DNA from: Plectonema radiosum NIES-515
GTDB lineage: Bacteria; Cyanobacteriota; Cyanobacteriia; Cyanobacteriales; Nostocaceae
Length of the DNA stretch: 64,000 nt
Reading direction: 5' to 3'
Assembly: GCF_025753815.1 (NCBI RefSeq)
Contig: NZ_JAOWRF010000250.1
Span: 1 to 64,000, forward strand
The notes under the pieces: model-generated
Told to the model about the DNA's origin: nothing
The model's database searches: none
What the model saw: the letters and a program-made list of their open reading frames with translations, nothing else
Made by a program: the position numbers and the translations under genes
Shown here: positions 10,057 through 44,070 of the stretch, one piece after another
Position numbering within the stretch: the stretch's first letter is position 1
Layout: each line of letters begins with the position of its first letter

Positions 10057-10084
10057 TAGAGACGTACAGAAAGGAACGTCTCTA
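10057..10084. repeat. Palindromic TAGAGACGT/ACGTCTCTA repeat
   Basis: TAGAGACGT (10057-10065) and ACGTCTCTA (10076-10084) form a perfect 9-bp stem with a 10-base loop. It is another copy of the dispersed core and abuts the first unit of the 78-bp tandem duplication. Confidence 0.7.
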
Positions 10085-10236
10085 CAAAATGTCGAATTTA
10101 TCGAGGTGTATTGTCAAATCATCCCGCTTTCTCTGCAACGCCAAAATTATTCAGCTATTCTACAAAATGTCGAATTTATCGAGGTGTATTGTCAAATCAT
10201 CCCGCTTTCTCTGCAACGCCAAAATTATTCAGCTAT
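10081..10236. repeat. Exact 78-bp tandem duplication
   Basis: Two identical 78-bp units occupy 10081-10158 and 10159-10236, each running from tctacaaaatg to attcagctat. The period is a multiple of three, so an open frame (10007-10258) crosses it with a doubled 26-residue block, but that frame has no other sign of being a gene. The rest of 9749-10056 holds HIP1 octamers and no gene I can support. The duplication ends 3 bases inside the 3' end of the HD-domain gene. Confidence 0.9.
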
Positions 10237-21961: not shown

Positions 21962-22050
21962 TAGACCTCTTGCATAAATATTTTTTTCTCACGCAAAGGC
22001 GCAAAGGCGCAAAGAAGATAATGAAAATAAGGACTTTTGCAAGAGGTCTA
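21962..22050. mobile_element. 89-bp MITE-like element with 13-bp terminal inverted repeats
   Basis: TAGACCTCTTGCA (21962-21974) and TGCAAGAGGTCTA (22038-22050) are perfect inverted ends. The middle contains cacgcaaaggcgcaaaggcgc, a common intergenic repeat. The outer CTA of the right end is the stop codon of the small minus-strand gene at 22048. The same 13-mer occurs at 54919-54931, at the break in the histidine kinase gene. Confidence 0.75.
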
Positions 22051-26121: not shown

Positions 26122-27527
26122 ACAATTTTCGCCGAAAATTACGCCAAGAAGCACAAAAATGGCGGGATGAAGGAATTATTAGTTCTTCATGTTACCAAGA
26201 CCTGGGAAAACGTTATCAATTTGATAACCTGGAAATAGCTGCACGCGATCGCTTCGTTTTTCTTGTCATTGCGATCGGCAGCATTTTGTTAAGCTTAGGC
26301 ATAATTACCTTTGTAGCCGCAAACTGGCAGGCATGGTCACGAGATGTCAAATTTGTGATTTTGATCAGTTTGTTTTTCGCAACTACCATCACAGGTTTTT
26401 ACTCTTTTAGAGAACCTACATTTAATGCCGAAGGAAAAAAGCAACCACGCAGCAAACAACTATTAGGAGAAAGTTTGCTAATTTTAGCTGCTTTGATATT
26501 AGGTGCAAATATTGCGTTGATGGCGCAAATGTTTAATATCAGCGGTTCAACTTCCCAACTATTTCTTTGGTGGGGGTTGGGTGTTTTAATCATGGCATAT
26601 GGACTTAATTTGACTTCCTTGGGAGTCCTATCAATCATCCTCATCCAAATAGGATATTGGACGGGATTAGGAGAATTGTCTTACTCTGCAACTGACTTCA
26701 GTTGGTCGCGATTATTGGTGCAACACATGCCATTATTTATTTGGTTACTGTTTGTACCCTTAGCTTATTTATGTCGATCGCGTTGGATATTTGCACTCGC
26801 AGCGATCGCCTTTACCATCTCCTTACAATTCAACCTCAATCCTCTACAACGTTTAGCTTACTCTAATAATTCAGCTCCTTGGGTTGCATCTTTTGCTTTT
26901 GCACTTCCAGCCGCACTATTTTGGAGTTACGATGACCTACTATTCCCCACAATCAATTTTAGGTTATTTCAACCCCTCGCCCAAAGTCTCTCGCTATGGT
27001 TTTTCGGAACCCTATTTTACGTCCTTTCCTTTTATTGGGTTTGGCAATATCCATCTTCCGGATTTTATCCCCTAACAACCAACTCACAAATTCAGTCATT
27101 TCCCCTAATTGATTTAGGAATCCTCAGCGGTTTAGTAGTATTGCAATGGCTGTTTATGCTGCGTTATCGCAACAGCCTAACCCGTAGAGGAATGGATATT
27201 ACCAATGTCTTTATTACCAGCTTTATTGTCATCGTCGCTTTGATACCTTTTTGGCATCAAGCTGTTACTCGTATTCCCGGTTTAGCAGTTTTTATCTTCA
27301 ATATTCTTCTGGGAATATTTGCCTTTGGACTAATGCGGCACGGCATAGAATACGGTGATAGACGCACATTTTGGGGCGGAATGCTGTTATTAACCCTGCA
27401 AATTATTAGCCGCATGTGGGAATATGACACCGACTTAATTTTCAAATCATTTGTCTTTGCTATGTGCGGTGTCGGTATAATTAGCGCCGGACTTTGGTTT
27501 GAACGGCGTTTAACAGTTAGGAGTTAG
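26112..27527 (+). CDS. DUF2157 multi-pass membrane protein
   Basis: 471 residues from ATG 26112 (GGAG upstream). The N-terminal cytosolic segment (QEAQKWRDEGIISSSCYQDLGKRYQF) is the DUF2157 signature and is followed by about ten hydrophobic helices. These proteins are usually encoded with a GDYXXLXY-domain protein, as here at 27801. The function of the pair is unknown. Confidence 0.82.
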   Translation: MVLDNFRRKLRQEAQKWRDEGIISSSCYQDLGKRYQFDNLEIAARDRFVFLVIAIGSILLSLGIITFVAANWQAWSRDVKFVILISLFFATTITGFYSFREPTFNAEGKKQPRSKQLLGESLLILAALILGANIALMAQMFNISGSTSQLFLWWGLGVLIMAYGLNLTSLGVLSIILIQIGYWTGLGELSYSATDFSWSRLLVQHMPLFIWLLFVPLAYLCRSRWIFALAAIAFTISLQFNLNPLQRLAYSNNSAPWVASFAFALPAALFWSYDDLLFPTINFRLFQPLAQSLSLWFFGTLFYVLSFYWVWQYPSSGFYPLTTNSQIQSFPLIDLGILSGLVVLQWLFMLRYRNSLTRRGMDITNVFITSFIVIVALIPFWHQAVTRIPGLAVFIFNILLGIFAFGLMRHGIEYGDRRTFWGGMLLLTLQIISRMWEYDTDLIFKSFVFAMCGVGIISAGLWFERRLTVRS

Positions 27528-27644
27528 GAGTTAGGAGTTGGGAGTTGGGAGTTTGGAGTTGGGAGTTGGGAGTTGGGAGTTTGGAGTTAGGAGTTAGGAG
27601 TTAGGAGTTAGGAGTTAGGAGTTAGGAGTTGGGAGTTTGGAGTT
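27517..27644. repeat. Heptanucleotide tandem repeat (gttagga / gttggga / gtttgga)
   Basis: About 18 units of a 7-bp motif mix three variants. The array begins within the last codons of the DUF2157 gene, so the C-terminal residues TVRS and the stop come from the repeat. Short tandemly repeated heptamers are typical of Nostocales. No spacers, so not CRISPR. Confidence 0.9.
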
Positions 27645-34944: not shown

Positions 34945-37101
34945 TCACAACGGCAATAAAACACTTTCCAAACTCTGTAAAACCTCTTCGGCTGACTGAT
35001 ATCTTTGGATATAGTCGTAAGCTATCATCTTATCTAACACAGTAGCTAATTTTTCACTAATATTATCTAGCTTGCACCAAATTACTGCATCGGCATGTAA
35101 GTCACCTTTGAAAATTAATGCTCCATGCGGATTTCTTTGAAATTGTCTTGGAGGTATTCCAGTTAGCGCTTCAATTCCAATCATTCCCAAAGCATAAATA
35201 TCACTATTTAGTCTGGGATGCCCTAATAGTTGTTCTGGAGGAGCATAACCAGCAGTACCAATTGCAATCGATTGATTATCTTCAATTTGTTGAGATTGAA
35301 TTTGCTTGACAGCACCGAAATCAATTAAAACTAAGCGATTATCTTGTTGTCGTCTAATCAGATTAGCCGGCTTGATATCTCGATGGATCACATGATGACT
35401 GTGAACGAAAATTAGCACCCGCAAAACATCTTGGAGTAAATCAATCACTTGCGCTTCTGATAGACGTTTACCAGATTTAATTTCTTCGCTGAGAGAATGT
35501 CCGGGAATAAATTGTTGCACTAAATAAAATTGTTGATTTTCTTCAAAATAAGCTAACAATTGGGGAATGCGATCGCTCTTACCCAAAAGTTCTAAAATTT
35601 CTCCTTCCGTTTTAAATAAACGTCTAGCGACTTCTAAAAATTCTTCATCTTGACGAGCGGGTTGCAAGTGCTTAACTACACATTCTGGATTGCCTGGACG
35701 CTGAGTATCTGAGGCTAAATAAGTTTTCCCAAATCCTCCAGAACCCAGAGGTTCAGTAACTTTGTAGCGTCGGTTGAGTAAAGTGTCTTTTTCAAACAGA
35801 GGAATTGCTGTCACATCATTATCTGTGTTTCCATCCCCCTGCAAAAGTGCTTGCAATAACTTGATGGTTCTTTCTTGCTCTCGAATTTGTCGTGCGATTT
35901 TTTCTTGCTCTCGTTTGTTGCAAAATGCGCTATAGGCAACGACACTTCCTGTCGCTACGATCAAACCTAATGCGGGAGAGACAACCGGAATCCATCCGGC
36001 TTGGGTAAATATGATATAATTGATTAGTAACAATAAAGTTAAAGTGACTCCACTCCCAAGAGTCAAACGCAGTGGATGTTGAATTCTCCATGCGATAATT
36101 CCTCCTGCTAAACTCCACACCCATATCCAAACAACTTCACCCCACTCAGGGAAAAACCAAAATAAAGGTTGTTTGTTGACGACAGCGCTGAGAATCTGAC
36201 TCACCATTTGCGCTTGGACAACAACTCCAGGCATTTTTTGGTTATCTTGTTGATTGGCGCTATAAGGTGTGTTAAAAATATCTTTGATGCTGGGTGCAGT
36301 TGAGCCAATGAGAACGATTTTATCTTTGACTAAAGCTGGATCGATTTGATTTGCCAGCACTTCGCTAACAGTAACAAGTTTGACAGGGTTAAGAGAACGG
36401 TAATTCAGCAGAATTTGAAAGCCATTTGTATCTACTTTCTGATAACCTCCAGAGTCACTCTGTAACGGTTTAAATATAGTATTACCAATTTGCAGTTCTT
36501 TCTTGGCAGAAAATTTGGGTTGAATGTTTCCCAAATAGCGCAGTGCTAGTTGTAAGCTTAGAGAGTAAGGAGTTGCACAAGCTGAGGTGGATTCTGGTTG
36601 GATCAGTAGTAGATTTCGACGAATAATATCATCTGTGTCTGCAACGACATCGCTAAATCCGACTTGCTCTATTTGTGTTCCTGCTGGCGGTGGTGTGGGA
36701 GAATTAAGAGAATCAGAATGTTTGCAGACAGAAATAATGCGATCGCTCTTCTGGAAATGTTGCAGTAGTTTATCATGACCTGGCTCGACTCGCAAATCGC
36801 GAAAGATATCCAAACCAATTACTCGTGGTTGATATTGTTCTATTTTGGTAAACAGCTTATCGATAATTTCTCCTGATAATGGCCATTTTTGGAAGTTTTG
36901 TAAATCTTTTTCAGTTACTCCCACAACCAAGATGCGAGGATCTAAACCAGGATTGCCCCGCATTTGAATCATCCGGTCAAAAACCTTCAATTCTATTGGT
37001 TCTAGTATTCCCAAGCGCTGAATCCCAAAGAGCAAGATTGTCGCGATCGCACTAGAAATAATCGCCGGCTGGATGAGGAAACTTTTCACTTTTGCCAGCA
37101 T
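34945..37101 (-). CDS. CHASE2-domain serine/threonine protein kinase
   Basis: 718 residues. An N-terminal helix precedes a periplasmic CHASE2 sensor (about 30-310: ELKVFDRMIQMRG, ILVVGVTEKDL, VIGLDIFRDL, KIVLIGSTAPSIKDIFNTPY), then two or three membrane helices (325-410), a short coiled coil (KREQEKIARQIREQERTIKLL) and a Hanks-type kinase domain (about 445-715: LGSGGFGKTYLASD, VVKH, HRDIKPANLI, DFGAVKQI). It senses an unknown extracytoplasmic signal. It lies 86 bp downstream of the exoprotein gene on the same strand, so co-transcription is likely. Confidence 0.9.
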   Translation of the reverse strand: MLAKVKSFLIQPAIISSAIATILLFGIQRLGILEPIELKVFDRMIQMRGNPGLDPRILVVGVTEKDLQNFQKWPLSGEIIDKLFTKIEQYQPRVIGLDIFRDLRVEPGHDKLLQHFQKSDRIISVCKHSDSLNSPTPPPAGTQIEQVGFSDVVADTDDIIRRNLLLIQPESTSACATPYSLSLQLALRYLGNIQPKFSAKKELQIGNTIFKPLQSDSGGYQKVDTNGFQILLNYRSLNPVKLVTVSEVLANQIDPALVKDKIVLIGSTAPSIKDIFNTPYSANQQDNQKMPGVVVQAQMVSQILSAVVNKQPLFWFFPEWGEVVWIWVWSLAGGIIAWRIQHPLRLTLGSGVTLTLLLLINYIIFTQAGWIPVVSPALGLIVATGSVVAYSAFCNKREQEKIARQIREQERTIKLLQALLQGDGNTDNDVTAIPLFEKDTLLNRRYKVTEPLGSGGFGKTYLASDTQRPGNPECVVKHLQPARQDEEFLEVARRLFKTEGEILELLGKSDRIPQLLAYFEENQQFYLVQQFIPGHSLSEEIKSGKRLSEAQVIDLLQDVLRVLIFVHSHHVIHRDIKPANLIRRQQDNRLVLIDFGAVKQIQSQQIEDNQSIAIGTAGYAPPEQLLGHPRLNSDIYALGMIGIEALTGIPPRQFQRNPHGALIFKGDLHADAVIWCKLDNISEKLATVLDKMIAYDYIQRYQSAEEVLQSLESVLLPL

Positions 37102-37187: not shown

Positions 37188-40100
37188 TCACCAAGGATTG
37201 CCAACCATTGTAAATGCTGCCCAATAATAAGGATGGGATAATGGTCCATCAGGTTGCTGGATACTATCAGCGGGTAAAGGTAAATTTCCAACTTCTCCTA
37301 AACCTTGTATTTGTCCGTTTTTTAAGTAAATCTCTCCTTTTGCCATCGCTACTTGAGCTTCTCTTAAAGCTTCTGCCCGAATTCTAGAGGTTTTCAAGCT
37401 TTGGTAAAATTTTGTCATCAAAGCGGCAGAACCAGCATCGTTGACTGCCCACAAACTCGCAACACTCGTTTTTACACCTGCGAGCACTGCTAATCCAGCA
37501 AATCCAATTTCTGCCTCTTCGTCTCCTAAAGCTGTTCTACAAGCACTTAGTACTAGCATTTCTACTTGAGGTTCATTAAAACCTAATTTCCGAATTTGGT
37601 TTAAGCGTAATTTGTCTTCCCAGAGTTGAATATATGAATTACTCAGCGTACCCGTGTTAAAATCAGCATGGGTTGCCATGTGAATAATTCCGAAAGGTTG
37701 TTGACGACGGATAGCTCTAAGATTATCTAAAGTCGCTTGCTTATTGAGAAATAATTTCCCTTGCCAAAGCTTAAACACCAATGTAGATAATTCAACGGGA
37801 ACTGCTGGTAAAGGTGTTTGTCCTTGAGTTGTTTGAGAAACTCCCATCGCTAAAAGTTGAGATTTTTTAATGTCGGTGTAGAGTGTGTTGGTTAAGGTGA
37901 GACTGGGCATCAAGCCAATACTGTATTTTTCTACCAAAAATCCTTTACCATTGTGTAAGGCAGCCATCGGGGTAGAACGTAGACCAACATCAGGCAGAAA
38001 AACTAGATTGTCGATACCTCGTGCTTCTAAATCTGCTTCTAATGGGGAAATTATCCAGCGATAAAGTTGTTGAGAGAAAGGTAAATAACCGTCACTGCGA
38101 CGATTTCGCGGAATCACGATTTGGTTGCGAAATTCTTCAGCAATTTTGAGAACTTCGGCTTTTGTCGCTTCGGGAATCCGTTTGCGTACAGGATTTCCTG
38201 TTCCTGTCACCATGACTAATTCGAGTTGTTGGCTGTTTTGCTCTGCTATAGTATTTAACTGTTTATTACCCAAAACAGATAAAGGAGTAATTTCTACAGG
38301 AACAAAACTGATGTAGATAAATGCAGGTTTGACACCAGTAGCTTTTTCAATCTTTTGAGCAATTGCTTTACCATCATCCAATGTTTTCAGGTTGGGAATC
38401 GGTATACCTAACTGAGTCGCAATCCTACTGGTAAACTTATCCTCAGGAGTGGGATTAGTATCCAGCAGTGCTCGATTACCATCAGTTGGGATGGTGATAG
38501 AAACAGGATTATCCCGCTTAACGGGATTATTATCGCATTGAACTGTGCAGGGGGGAGGAGTTGGAGTTGGAGGTGGAGGTGGAGGTGGAGGTGGAGTTGC
38601 AGGTGGAGTAATATTAAGTCCTACTTGTTGAGGTGCAGAAAAAGAAACGCGATCGCTTGCTCTAACTGTGAAAGCATTAATTCCTCCATTGGCATTACTT
38701 GGTGATGTATAATTAAGAGTCTCGCCAGGAATTAAGGCATCTCCTGGATTTAAAACGGTTTGCGATCGCCTTAATGTTCCAGCAGTAATCGCATCAAGGA
38801 CGATAGAGGTGTTATCAAGATTGATATCGCTGGTGTTTGCTGTAAAAGTAAAAGGAAAAGATTGACCAGCTTGAGCATTATTTGAGAGTGTGGGGTTTGT
38901 CGTTAGTGTTGGTGCGCTGTTGACAGAATTAATTGTAATCCCCGCAGGAGTACCAATAGCAGTTCCACCATTAGACAAAACTGGAAAACTACCCGCAGAG
39001 ATAATTGAGGTTCCACCCGCATTAATACTTCCTGTTGTACCATTGAGAGTTGTCAGAGGTGGAGCACCCACGATAAATGGTACATTATCTGCTCCGCCAT
39101 CATGTTGAATTCTAACAGTTCCTCCACCAGTGGCGATGGTGTCCCTACTTTCCCCAATCGTTCCTGTACCTTGAACAAGTCCGTTTGTGAGCACTTGCAC
39201 ATTACCATTTTGAATAGTAATACCAGCTTCTGCGCCACCTTGGTCAGTTATAGCTTGAGAGTTAATGCTATCAAAACGAATCGTGCTACCAGCTGCATTA
39301 GTTGTTTGTAAGGTGACATCACCACCTGTAGCAGTTCCACCACGTTGGTTAGTATTGACGTTTGCGGAAGAGTTTATTGCTCCTGTAGTAATATTACCAC
39401 CGCTGGTCGTGGCTATAACAGCGCCACCTGTACCCAAACCAAAACCATTATTGGAAGAAGAATCAATCGTATTAGTCTGGATGTCACCTGCGGCAGTTAA
39501 AGTTATTGTTCCTGCCGCATTCCCATTAGTAAAGCCGTTATTATTGCTTGTATTTAGTTGATCAAGAGTTATTCCGCCGCTGGTGGTGGTAACATTAATA
39601 TTGCCAGAGCCATAGCCGTTTCCGCTAGCAATTATATTCCCTGCATTAATATTGCCGCTTGCAGACAAAGTTACATTACCGCTATTGGTGAAATTACCAG
39701 TTGTGCTGAGATTACCCAAAGATAAACTCGCTCCGGAAATATTGATGTTTCCCCCAGCATTTCTGATAGTGTCAGTGGGATTAGCAAAGATGACTCCACC
39801 GCTTTGAGAAGACAAGCTGAAATTTCCACCGTTCAATGTCGCTGTACCGGGGGTAGTTACTCCGGGGGTATCTCCGTTAATGGAATTGATGGTAATATTT
39901 CCAGTAGCCTGTAAATTGATATTGGTAGCTAAACTTAAGGTTCCCCAAGAAATTGTATTCGCACCATTATCAGGTAATGCAAAAGGAATATTACCAGCCG
40001 TACTATCAAAACTACCATTACCTGAAGGCGCATCGATAATCGTTAATGTGCTGGGGTCTAATAATAAAGTGCCAAAATTACCGCTGTTCGCTGAAGTATC

Positions 40101-42200
40101 GACAGAACCTCGAAAAGTTAAGAAATTTTTCCCCGATACTTCCACAAAGCCACCATTCCCAGAATTTAACCCACCGCGAGCAGATATATTACCAAAAAAC
40201 TGAGTGCGATCGCTACCCCAAACAATAACACGTCCGCCATTGCCATTCAACTTACCCTGAGCATTAATCACAGAGTTGGAATCAACATAAGTCTGACTAG
40301 CATTATAGACCGTTCCCTTACCCTGATAATCGCCACCAATTAAGACTGTACCACCATTATTACTGCCAGAGGCGTTAATATTCGCGCCAATCACCGCAAC
40401 TTGCTGACCCAAAACATTGACTGTACCCCCGGTGGAACCAGATACATCAACTTTGCCAGATATAATAGTTGTACCTGGGGAAGTTGGAATTTTCAGGTTT
40501 GAATTTGTTAGTTGTACAGTACCATCAGAATTAGCAGTTAAGCCAGTATTCCCCACAGTGAGCAACTCTGGTAAAGAAGCGACAGGAATAGTCGAGTTTG
40601 ATTGATTGCTCAAAGGCTGAATTTCCAAACTTAAAATATTTCCCGGTTGACTCAAACGCACCCAACTTTGTCCAGGAACCGATGAAACGACGATTTGCCC
40701 CCCAGGAGCGGAAATCTGCCCAGTATTAATTACCGTACCACCTAATAAAGTTAAATTTTGACCAGCCCCCACCCCTAAATTACCAGCATTAATAATTCCA
40801 CCTGGTTGATTGGTTGTAAAAGCGAATCCGTTGGGTTTCCCTACCAACGCAGTATAGTTATTTGTGGCGATCGCATCAAACCAAACATTCCCAAACCCAA
40901 TACCATTTGCCGTCGTCGCCGTAAAAGCACCAGGAACATTTAAACTAGCATTTGCACCAAATACAAATCCTGCTGGATTCAGCAAAAATAAATTAGGACT
41001 TCCACCCGTTACCTGAATCAAACCATTGATAATGGAAGGATTACCCCCCGTCACTCGACCGAGAATATTTTGCAAAACTGGATTAGCCTGAAAATTAGCT
41101 ATTTGTTCTCGTGAAATGCCAAACTCTTGAAAGCTGTGAAATAAGTTTGCCCCATCACCAGAAATCTTACCACCACTAATATCAAGTCTATTGCCGTTAG
41201 GCGTCACAACCGTATTTGTTCCGTCCGCAGCGGGAATAATTTGTTGCGCTGAAGCTAATCCCGCATTCACAGTTGCGATGAAGGGAACAATACCTAAGCA
41301 AGCATACCTGATAAAATTTTGGCATATTTTTAAGATGATTATTTCACTTCTAGACCCAGAGGCACAGAGACAAAAATTGACTTTCCGTAATTCAAAACTT
41401 TGAGCGTGTTCTTTATCCCTTTGCGTCTTTGCGCCTTTGCGTGAGCTTTCCCTTAACAAAAGCCTACCCGTACCGAATTCTACATCAATTTGATATTTAT
41501 CAACAAGTCCCCGCCGCTTTAACGCTTCAGCAATTACCCCCTGGGATAATAGAAGCATTTCCAATCTACGCTCTTGGGTAATATTCCCTGGATGAGTCCG
41601 ATAATAGTAAAGTGGCTTTTTCACCCGTCCAACAGAAGCAACTTCAGAGAGTCGCAGACATAAATCGTAATCTTCAACGACATCCGGTGAACCCTCAAAA
41701 CCCTTCACTTGCTCGAAAAGCGATCGCCGAACTAAGCGAAAATGAAAAGTCATAAAGTCTACCAATAGCCGTTCTGGAGAGTAGGGAATCGAACAGCGAT
41801 GACCATAACTAGTAACTTTACCACTTTCATTTATCTCATAATAATCAGTATAAACAAAACCCATTTCTGGCTCGCGTATAAGTACAGCAGCCGTTTCGGC
41901 TATTGCGGTAGGAGCCAAAAAATCGTCGCTATCTAACCAGCCGATGTAGTCTCCCGTCGTCTGGTTAGCTGCTGCTTGACGGGCTAATGCGATACCTAAG
42001 TGAGGTGCTTTTACTACCCGTAAACGCTTATCTTGTTGAGCAAACTTGTTCGCGATCGCCACTGATTCATCTATAGAGCCATCATCCCAAATTAGCAACT
42101 CAAAGTCTTGCCATGTCTGCGCTAAGACGCTAGCGATCGCTTCCCACAGGTAATCTTGACGATTGTAGTTGACGATGATAATTGAGATTAATGGCGACAT
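37188..42200 (-). CDS. Fusion ORF: GT2 glycosyltransferase + secreted hemagglutinin-type CHAT protease
   Basis: 1670 residues. Residues 1-250 are a GT2 glycosyltransferase (ISIIIVNYNRQDYLWEAIAS, WDDGS 38-42, WLDSDD 88-93). Residues 251-288 are encoded by intergenic-repeat-like DNA. Residues 290-319 look like a signal peptide (FIRYACLGIVPFIATVNAGLASAQ). Residues 320-430 are the two-partner-secretion domain (NGNRLDISGGKISGDGANLF, NLFLLNPAGFVFG). Gly/Asn-rich beta-helix repeats follow to about 1050, then a Pro-rich linker near 1200. The C-terminal CHAT domain keeps His1511 (MATHADF) and Cys1554 (LSACRTALGDEE). No ATG, GTG or TTG in frame was seen between about residues 270 and 300, so the fusion may be real. 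Confidence 0.85.
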   Translation of the reverse strand: MSPLISIIIVNYNRQDYLWEAIASVLAQTWQDFELLIWDDGSIDESVAIANKFAQQDKRLRVVKAPHLGIALARQAAANQTTGDYIGWLDSDDFLAPTAIAETAAVLIREPEMGFVYTDYYEINESGKVTSYGHRCSIPYSPERLLVDFMTFHFRLVRRSLFEQVKGFEGSPDVVEDYDLCLRLSEVASVGRVKKPLYYYRTHPGNITQERRLEMLLLSQGVIAEALKRRGLVDKYQIDVEFGTGRLLLRESSRKGAKTQRDKEHAQSFELRKVNFCLCASGSRSEIIILKICQNFIRYACLGIVPFIATVNAGLASAQQIIPAADGTNTVVTPNGNRLDISGGKISGDGANLFHSFQEFGISREQIANFQANPVLQNILGRVTGGNPSIINGLIQVTGGSPNLFLLNPAGFVFGANASLNVPGAFTATTANGIGFGNVWFDAIATNNYTALVGKPNGFAFTTNQPGGIINAGNLGVGAGQNLTLLGGTVINTGQISAPGGQIVVSSVPGQSWVRLSQPGNILSLEIQPLSNQSNSTIPVASLPELLTVGNTGLTANSDGTVQLTNSNLKIPTSPGTTIISGKVDVSGSTGGTVNVLGQQVAVIGANINASGSNNGGTVLIGGDYQGKGTVYNASQTYVDSNSVINAQGKLNGNGGRVIVWGSDRTQFFGNISARGGLNSGNGGFVEVSGKNFLTFRGSVDTSANSGNFGTLLLDPSTLTIIDAPSGNGSFDSTAGNIPFALPDNGANTISWGTLSLATNINLQATGNITINSINGDTPGVTTPGTATLNGGNFSLSSQSGGVIFANPTDTIRNAGGNINISGASLSLGNLSTTGNFTNSGNVTLSASGNINAGNIIASGNGYGSGNINVTTTSGGITLDQLNTSNNNGFTNGNAAGTITLTAAGDIQTNTIDSSSNNGFGLGTGGAVIATTSGGNITTGAINSSANVNTNQRGGTATGGDVTLQTTNAAGSTIRFDSINSQAITDQGGAEAGITIQNGNVQVLTNGLVQGTGTIGESRDTIATGGGTVRIQHDGGADNVPFIVGAPPLTTLNGTTGSINAGGTSIISAGSFPVLSNGGTAIGTPAGITINSVNSAPTLTTNPTLSNNAQAGQSFPFTFTANTSDINLDNTSIVLDAITAGTLRRSQTVLNPGDALIPGETLNYTSPSNANGGINAFTVRASDRVSFSAPQQVGLNITPPATPPPPPPPPPTPTPPPCTVQCDNNPVKRDNPVSITIPTDGNRALLDTNPTPEDKFTSRIATQLGIPIPNLKTLDDGKAIAQKIEKATGVKPAFIYISFVPVEITPLSVLGNKQLNTIAEQNSQQLELVMVTGTGNPVRKRIPEATKAEVLKIAEEFRNQIVIPRNRRSDGYLPFSQQLYRWIISPLEADLEARGIDNLVFLPDVGLRSTPMAALHNGKGFLVEKYSIGLMPSLTLTNTLYTDIKKSQLLAMGVSQTTQGQTPLPAVPVELSTLVFKLWQGKLFLNKQATLDNLRAIRRQQPFGIIHMATHADFNTGTLSNSYIQLWEDKLRLNQIRKLGFNEPQVEMLVLSACRTALGDEEAEIGFAGLAVLAGVKTSVASLWAVNDAGSAALMTKFYQSLKTSRIRAEALREAQVAMAKGEIYLKNGQIQGLGEVGNLPLPADSIQQPDGPLSHPYYWAAFTMVGNPW
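41401..41450. repeat. Intergenic-type repeat at the fusion joint
   Basis: ttgcgtctttgcgcctttgcgtgag (in part, about 41420-41445) is the same repeat as tctcacgcaaaggcgcaaagg at 21988 and is close to ctcacgcactcggagcaaagacgc at 37140. In this genome such repeats otherwise lie between genes. Here it encodes SRKGAKTQRDKEH inside the long ORF. Confidence 0.7.
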
Positions 42201-42345: not shown

Positions 42346-44070
42346 ATGAAGACCTTAATTTCTCTTAGAGACGTTCCGCCGCAACCTCTCTACCATAGCA
42401 CCAAAAATATACGTGTCAGATATGCTTTGTTAATTCTCCACTCTGTCTGCATTCTCTGCATAGCACTAAAAGCTACGGCTGATGATGTCAATACAAATAA
42501 CGTAACATTTCCCGCAATTGCACAGACATCAGATATTGACCCACCCCTCAAACCAGAAACAAGCGATCGCCTGATTGTACGTAAAATCAAAGTTGTCCAT
42601 AGCACTGTCTTTAGCGAAAAAGACTTTAACCCTATTTTACAGCCGTATGTGGGACGAGAATTAACTCTTGAAGAAATTAGACAAGCCGCAGATAAAATTA
42701 CTCAGCTTTATTTAAATCAAAAATATATCAATTCCAGAGCGATTCCGGTAACTGAGCAGACTCCAGACGGTGTGGTGGTAATTCGTGTGATTGAAGGACG
42801 TTTAGCAGAGATTGAAGTTCAAGGAACAAAGCGATTAAATCCCAATTATATTCGCGATCGCATCAAACTTGGTGCTGGTATCCCTCTGAATACTATACAA
42901 CTTGAAGACCAACTAAAGTTACTGCGAATCGATCCACTTTTCACCAATGTGGAAGCTAGTTTACGTCCTACAGGTAAGGTTGGTCAAAGTATTCTCATTG
43001 TCAGAGTGCAAGAAGCAAACCCCATCACCGCTGTTCTTGGTGTAGATAACTATTCATCACCTAGCGTTGGGGGAGAAAGATTGGGTATTGAATTGCGCGA
43101 TCGCAATTTAATCGGAATTGGTGATGAGTTGGCAGGCTCATATTACCATACTCTATCAGGTGGTTCGGATGTTTTTGATTTTAGTTATCAAATTCCCGTT
43201 AACGCCATGAATGGCAAGGTACAATTAAGAGCTGCCCCCAATCGGAACGAAATTACCGAAGCTCCATTTAATAGATTGGGTATTCGGGCAGATCAAGATT
43301 TATATGAAGTTAATTATCGTCAGCCGTTAGTGCGATCGCCAAGAGAAGAATTTGCTCTTTCCTTCGGATTTACCTATCAAGATGGTCAAACCTTTCTTTT
43401 TGATCGACTTCCCACCCCTTTTGGGATTGGTCCCGATGAAAATGGAGTTAGTCGTACCAGCGTAATTAAGTTTAGCCAAGATTATGTCAAACGCGATCCG
43501 CAAGGAGCTACTTTCGTGCGATCGCAATTTAATTTTGGCACTGGTTTATTAGATGCTACGATAAATAATGCACCCATCCCTGACGGTCGTTTTTTCAGTT
43601 GGTTGGCGCAAGTACAGCGCGTACAACAACTGAATAACGATAACTTGTTGCTGATTCAAGCCGACTTACAACTAACACCAGACAGCTTATTACCTTCCCA
43701 ACAATTTGTAATTGGTGGTGGACAGTCTGTCAGAGGATATCGGCAAAATATTCGTTCTGGCGATAATGGCTTTCGTTTAGCGATCGAAGATCGATTCACT
43801 TGCATACGCAACGAATCAGGATTATCCACTATTCAGCTTATACCATTTCTCGACTTAGGAGCCATCTGGAATCAATCTGATAATCCTAACAAACTACCCA
43901 GCCAAAGATTTCTAGCAAGTGCAGGTTTAGGGCTATTGTGGAATCAAGCATTAGGAATCGATCGCCTAACTTTACGACTCGATTATGGAATACCCTTCAT
44001 CGATTTAAACGATAAAGGTAATAATGCCCAAGATCAAGGCTTTTACTTCAGCCTGCGTTTTCAACCGTAG
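42346..44070 (+). CDS. ShlB/FhaC-type TpsB outer-membrane transporter
   Basis: 574 residues. The N-terminal export region is hydrophobic (YALLILHSVCILCIALKATA). A POTRA domain covers about 75-150 (IVRKIKVVHSTVFSEKDFNPIL, ITQLYLNQKYINSRA) with a second POTRA-like part to about 225, followed by a 16-strand barrel with the conserved VRGYR loop (GGGQSVRGYRQN) and a C-terminal FSLRFQP strand. It should secrete the hemagglutinin-type protein encoded divergently 145 bp away, forming a two-partner secretion pair. Confidence 0.92.
   Translation: MKTLISLRDVPPQPLYHSTKNIRVRYALLILHSVCILCIALKATADDVNTNNVTFPAIAQTSDIDPPLKPETSDRLIVRKIKVVHSTVFSEKDFNPILQPYVGRELTLEEIRQAADKITQLYLNQKYINSRAIPVTEQTPDGVVVIRVIEGRLAEIEVQGTKRLNPNYIRDRIKLGAGIPLNTIQLEDQLKLLRIDPLFTNVEASLRPTGKVGQSILIVRVQEANPITAVLGVDNYSSPSVGGERLGIELRDRNLIGIGDELAGSYYHTLSGGSDVFDFSYQIPVNAMNGKVQLRAAPNRNEITEAPFNRLGIRADQDLYEVNYRQPLVRSPREEFALSFGFTYQDGQTFLFDRLPTPFGIGPDENGVSRTSVIKFSQDYVKRDPQGATFVRSQFNFGTGLLDATINNAPIPDGRFFSWLAQVQRVQQLNNDNLLLIQADLQLTPDSLLPSQQFVIGGGQSVRGYRQNIRSGDNGFRLAIEDRFTCIRNESGLSTIQLIPFLDLGAIWNQSDNPNKLPSQRFLASAGLGLLWNQALGIDRLTLRLDYGIPFIDLNDKGNNAQDQGFYFSLRFQP

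Follow-up and report, generated by a model that had tools for sequence, protein, structure and literature searches.

The window analysed here, 64,000 nucleotides of the cyanobacterium Plectonema radiosum NIES-515 (contig NZ_JAOWRF010000250.1, positions 1 to 64,000), contains at 42200..37188 on the reverse strand a single reading frame of 1670 codons, in which a family 2 glycosyltransferase (GT2) is followed by an internal signal-like segment, a two-partner secretion (TPS) domain, a repeat region and a CHAT domain. Comparison with relatives points to an old and conserved gene fusion that is common to dozens of filamentous cyanobacteria, and not to a glitch of this one genome. In our best explanation, to which we assign a probability of about two in three, this old fusion would be translated as one chain, held in the membrane by its internal signal anchor, cleaved there, and its secreted half exported through a neighbouring TpsB transporter.

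Domain organization of the fused gene

The frame opens with an ATG, preceded by GGGAGGAGTTCC and with GGAGGAG upstream, and is uninterrupted, as the first-pass annotation, made from the sequence alone, had described. The GT2, TPS and CHAT domains named there are all confirmed by Pfam matches, and the gene is divided as follows:

41451..42200, reverse strand: GT2 glycosyltransferase domain, residues 1-250 (Pfam Glycos_transf_2 at 6-165, E 1.7e-32)
41334..41450, reverse strand: repeat-derived linker, residues 251-289, an in-frame insert that separates the C-terminus of the GT2 from the signal peptide (inverted repeat with a dispersed left arm)
41247..41333, reverse strand: putative internal signal peptide or signal anchor, residues 290-318, with predicted cleavage at ASA/QQ (hydropathy, charge, A-x-A, modelled helix)
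40578..41225, reverse strand: TPS secretion domain, residues 326-541 (Pfam PF05860, E 4.3e-39; NCBIfam adhes_NPXG)
38079..40577, reverse strand: Gly/Asn/Thr-rich repeat passenger and proline-rich stretch, residues 542-1374 (from sequence)
37197..38078, reverse strand: CHAT domain, residues 1375-1668, with His1511 and Cys1554 (Pfam PF12770, E 1.7e-70)

PF05860 and TIGR01901 both score above cutoff, as expected of the TPS domain of a TpsA exoprotein (filamentous hemagglutinin N-terminal type). Note that the Sec signal of a TpsA protein is expected at the N-terminus; here the signal-like segment adjoins the TPS domain but lies 290 residues into the chain. It runs from KICQNFIRY through ACLGIVPFIATVNAGLASA to QQIIPA, at about residues 290-318 by hydropathy; the first-pass annotation placed the helix at 290-319, and AlphaFold models one helix at 284-315. 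The same model is confident for the GT2 up to residue ~250 (pLDDT, the predicted local distance difference test score, about 90), while its TPS part was poor and was not used. In the CHAT domain, His1507, His1511 and Cys1554 are invariant in all 55 of 55 full-length relatives; the His and Cys pointed out in the first-pass annotation thus form the expected dyad, and protease activity is predicted. The passenger region includes a GGAGGT tandem repeat at 38557-38608. What the first-pass annotation took for beta-helix repeats, a putative fold, is this Gly/Asn/Thr-rich part of the chain.

Distribution of the fusion

Our search covered 145 genomes of the family together with named genome contigs. 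Many genomes of Nostoc, Desmonostoc, Tolypothrix, Spirirestis, Anabaena and others carry the GT2-TPS-CHAT arrangement, their GT2s being as little as 52% identical, and within the family sample GT2 and TPS share one frame in 33 of 145 genomes. Wherever the first sweep found a GT2 just 5' of a TPS domain, the two were in one frame (61 loci with 54 distinct N-termini), with locus L118 as the exception. This locus is split relative to its sister L115 by one extra A within a run of As, which would be either a slip or a sequencing error. Separate GT2 and TPS genes were looked for in relatives and none were found except L118; a stop codon near 41450 and an in-frame ATG near 41330, which would likewise have spoken against the fused frame, are absent. 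A later search added 7 further one-frame GT2-TPS loci, all of another family; in one of these, ~220 additional residues separate the signal from the TPS domain. One fused relative (L143:5083-6138) has a frame that stops within the TPS domain, in the presence of a divergent TpsB, and represents a decaying copy.

The TPS-CHAT tree and the GT2 tree each hold at least two fused groups intermixed with unfused ones, and the fusion may have had a single origin or several. As the genome is a draft of 421 contigs and the linker holds a dispersed repeat, an assembly error or a recent pseudogene joining might account for the frame. However, the same architecture is present in dozens of independent assemblies, several times on single multi-megabase contigs, which refutes an artefact, and the fusion is under purifying selection. 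We give this account practically no weight, and the suspicion of an accident peculiar to one genome falls with it.

Junction and linker

Standalone members of the GT2 subfamily end in ...VGRYSLRPKA and a stop codon, or similarly, whereas fused ones run on as ...GRFILRRKK into the signal peptide, i.e. '...GRFILRRKKSLLSSIAASVLVIAPLLSAISPKLAQAQQIVPA'. This supports the earlier proposal that two genes became one when a stop and a start were lost. The junction is located at the natural GT2 C-terminus, with the basic GT2 end doubling as the N-terminal basic region of the signal.

Linker residues 251-289 of the window gene are encoded by an inverted repeat with imperfect arms, the left one of which has ~40 further copies in the genome; a second near-identical copy of the linker repeat arm (CGCAAAGGCGCAAAGGCGCAAAG) lies at 21992-22014 of the window. 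The linker is thus repeat-encoded as first annotated, but the repeat did not make the join: most fusions lack it, and it is therefore ruled out as their cause. It is best read as a later in-frame insertion into an already existing fusion. A second assembly of the same genus (L010/L148) has the same repeat-derived linker, in frame and at 85% identity, and several lineages have taken differing repeat-like stretches into the linker, in frame every time. Within the window's own group the ratio of nonsynonymous to synonymous substitution rates (dN/dS) of the linker is ~0.65-0.74, that is near-neutral with the frame open, while GT2 and TPS are constrained.

Translation of the fused frame

The gap between GT2 and TPS occurs in 28 different lengths, all of them in frame and free of stops. 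In 16 long linkers, 574 codons altogether, there were 0 in-frame stops, whereas the two alternative frames hold 20 and 34, a result matched by 0 of 2000 shuffles; note that these loci were picked for sharing one frame, a choice that left out L118 alone. In 25 of 54 fusions the stretch from the end of the GT2 to the signal core has no ATG, GTG or TTG at all, and the only usual start codon in this part of the window gene is a TTG ~70 codons before the cleavage site. In a clade of four genomes (L110-L113) the catalytic middle of the GT2 is deleted, yet the GT2 ATG, the frame and the signal are kept: 180-290 codons are retained without a stop, the clade shows 902 codons with 0 in-frame stops versus 44 and 52 in the other frames, and purifying selection acts on TPS (dN/dS 0.02-0.08) and CHAT (0.06-0.13). 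To judge from its deletion, this GT2 is dead and cannot work. In Richelia sinica only the first ~25 GT2 residues are left ahead of the signal peptide. Both cases are nested within the fused clade in the TPS-CHAT tree and are therefore secondary GT2 losses. The in-frame gaps, the linkers devoid of start codons and the ATG and open frame retained with a dead GT2 together argue that translation of the exoprotein begins at the GT2 start, and GT2 and exoprotein very probably form one chain. The GT2-TPS frame as such is under selection.

The first-pass annotation had also considered a rare start codon for the exoprotein. Two products would then arise from one frame, the exoprotein being initiated separately at a TTG, or at some rarer codon, within the linker, without need for the GT2 start. 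Such a product would bear a normal N-terminal signal peptide, and 22 of 34 alignable linkers do have a TTG directly before the basic RRKK stretch, more than the Leu background of 0.13-0.19 would give. In the other 12 of 34, however, the codon is TTA, CTG or CTC, with which the TTG swaps among species, and the homologous codon of the window is TTA. No Shine-Dalgarno-like stretch at the usual spacing before the TTG was found in the linkers examined, and the fusions that lack a usual start codon in the gap also speak against this explanation. Above all, separate initiation needs no kept frame, yet the frame is open in long, drifting linkers and, together with the GT2 ATG, in genes with a dead GT2. 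We thus rejected an internal TTG start as a general rule, since the codon is not conserved and has no ribosome site, and consider separate initiation an improbable explanation overall, although internal TTG initiation may occur in part of the species.

The internal signal segment

The hydrophobic (h-) region has a mean hydropathy of 2.4, and Ala is found at position -1 in 50 of 54 and at -3 in 47 of 54 relatives. Proteins with a cytosolic domain in front of an internal signal anchor simply have the ordinary type II topology, and the verdict that an internal signal "makes no sense" was too strong. We propose that a single chain would be translated from the GT2 ATG, with the GT2 folding in the cytosol, and that the GT2 C-terminus, basic residues, h-region and A-x-A would enter Sec as a type II signal anchor with the N-terminus inside. 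Signal peptidase I would then cut at A-x-A/QQ (ASA/QQ in the window) to yield a membrane-tethered GT2 and a freed TPS-CHAT exoprotein, which would be secreted from the periplasm via the neighbouring divergent TpsB, and the GT2 would act on a cell-envelope glycan or on the nascent exoprotein. In this scheme we infer topology, cleavage, TpsB partnership and GT2 substrate. That signal peptidase I splits the chain in two is probable, because the A-x-A is kept in nearly all members.

Folded cytosolic N-domains with type II topology are common, as in CadC and ToxR-type regulators, and the segment could accordingly be an uncleaved anchor, with a cytosolic GT2 and a TPS-CHAT part that is held in the periplasm or passes through TpsB, all within a single transmembrane protein. 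The existence in another family of a GT2 with signal and a short Pro/Gly-rich tail, but without TPS, fits this arrangement. Against it stands the conserved A-x-A before TPS, which resembles that of unfused TPS signal peptides, e.g. KTAIA/QNITPA, and we regard an uncleaved anchor as unlikely.

Some observations weigh against the proposed scheme of one chain, cleavage and TpsB export, in addition to the TTG codons described above. Hydropathy and A-x-A were scored with a simple script, and translation, cleavage and secretion were judged from sequence comparison. The fusions of clade B have no adjoining TpsB. Finally, GT2 activity can be lost while the exoprotein is kept, so that a functional link of the two halves is hypothetical.

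The glycosyltransferase half

The closest solved structure to the GT2 is K4 chondroitin polymerase (2z86/2z87), both by sequence (E 1.3e-32, ~29% identity) and as the top Foldseek match. The motifs WDDGS (38-42), DSDD (90-93) and EDYD (176-179) and His203 are present, the catalytic columns (the DD, DxDD and ED aspartates) vary little or not at all among 54 fusions, and GT2 dN/dS is well below 1 in 16 pairs. The domain thus shows a GT-A fold with the DDG, DxD and ED residues and is a predicted enzyme, whose active-site residues are kept by selection in most species, with the GT2 evidently dispensable in some.

The subfamily is prone to fusion, with sulfotransferase-like C-terminal parts (read from sequence) or a second GT2 joined on:

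L221:1524-2936, L224:1073-2377, L225:638-2383, L133:9284-11536, L135:5198-7414: GT2s with sulfotransferase-like parts or a second GT2

In view of these sister GT2s, the target is no less likely to be a glycan of the envelope or an exopolysaccharide, and action on the exoprotein is a tentative option. Three loci (L185:1391-2587, L222:1495-2676, L223:1023-2159) combine a GT2 with an internal signal-like segment ending in A-T-A and a Pro/Gly/Tyr-rich tail, without TPS. In another family, 10 of 14 genomes have relatives of this form, and a GT2 with an internal signal may represent a module that can be reused. Standalone plasmid GT2s (AP018308.1:135025-135771, AP018293.1:41979-42725, AP018208.1:67121-67876) are labelled 'filamentous hemagglutinin outer membrane protein', a name apparently carried over from fused relatives; because of this name, databases probably hold such fused proteins.

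Neighbouring genes and other repeats

Two genes flank the fusion:

42346..44070, forward strand: divergent TpsB (ShlB/FhaC-type) outer-membrane transporter, the likely partner (Pfam ShlB, POTRA_2)
34945..37101, reverse strand: CHASE2 - Ser/Thr kinase gene, downstream (Pfam)

The TpsB gene adjoins nearly all window-type fusions. A close homologue of the kinase is found next to the fusion in same-genus relatives, and weaker homologues in a few others. The window further contains an exact 78-bp tandem duplication at 10081-10236 and, at a gene end, ~19 copies of the heptamer AGTTAGG (27515-27644).

Relation to known systems

The FbcH cytochrome b/c1 polyprotein of Bradyrhizobium is a single chain that gives two proteins by cleavage at an internal signal. 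Unlike the FbcH halves, which form one membrane complex, those of the present fusion are a cytosolic enzyme and a secreted exoprotein, and cleavage is predicted. Unfused cyanobacterial TPS-CHAT exoproteins share signal peptide, TPS, repeats and CHAT with the fusion but have the signal peptide at their very start (e.g. L145, L071), while K4 chondroitin polymerase, similar to the GT2 in sequence and fold, differs as a two-domain polymerase without an exoprotein. HMW1A/HMW1B/HMW1C of Haemophilus influenzae is a three-gene two-partner secretion system with a separate cytosolic GT41 glycosyltransferase as third partner (PMC3983070, PMC5422565). There, as here, a TpsA exoprotein, a TpsB pore (in our case the likely partner) and a cytosolic glycosyltransferase are brought together; however, HMW1C is a separate GT41 (GT-B) N-glycosyltransferase, whereas the enzyme described here belongs to GT2 (GT-A), is fused upstream of the signal, and its glycosylation of the exoprotein is hypothesized. 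A doubtful but conceivable extension is a 1:1 polyprotein parted by signal peptidase, whose GT2 would glycosylate its own exoprotein or a co-travelling glycan during export, in effect a type V system of three partners, the third of which is fused in front of the signal peptide.

TpsA proteins have been described with N-terminal signal peptides, some of them extended, as in the FhaB/HMW1 type (PMC5422565). The fusion likewise has extra residues ahead of the signal core, but where the known extensions are short it carries a folded enzyme of 250 residues, which lies outside that description. No paper on the GT2-TPS-CHAT architecture was found in the literature searched, which left out most subscription journals.

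A whole cytosolic enzyme before the TpsA signal in many cyanobacteria, along with naturally occurring forms whose enzyme is dead or almost lost, provides a ready test of how deep in a chain a Sec signal can act, of whether signal peptidase serves bacteria to obtain two proteins from a single chain, and of whether enzyme and exoprotein cooperate. The fusion also accounts for misnamed database entries, and it implies one chain built for two cell compartments.
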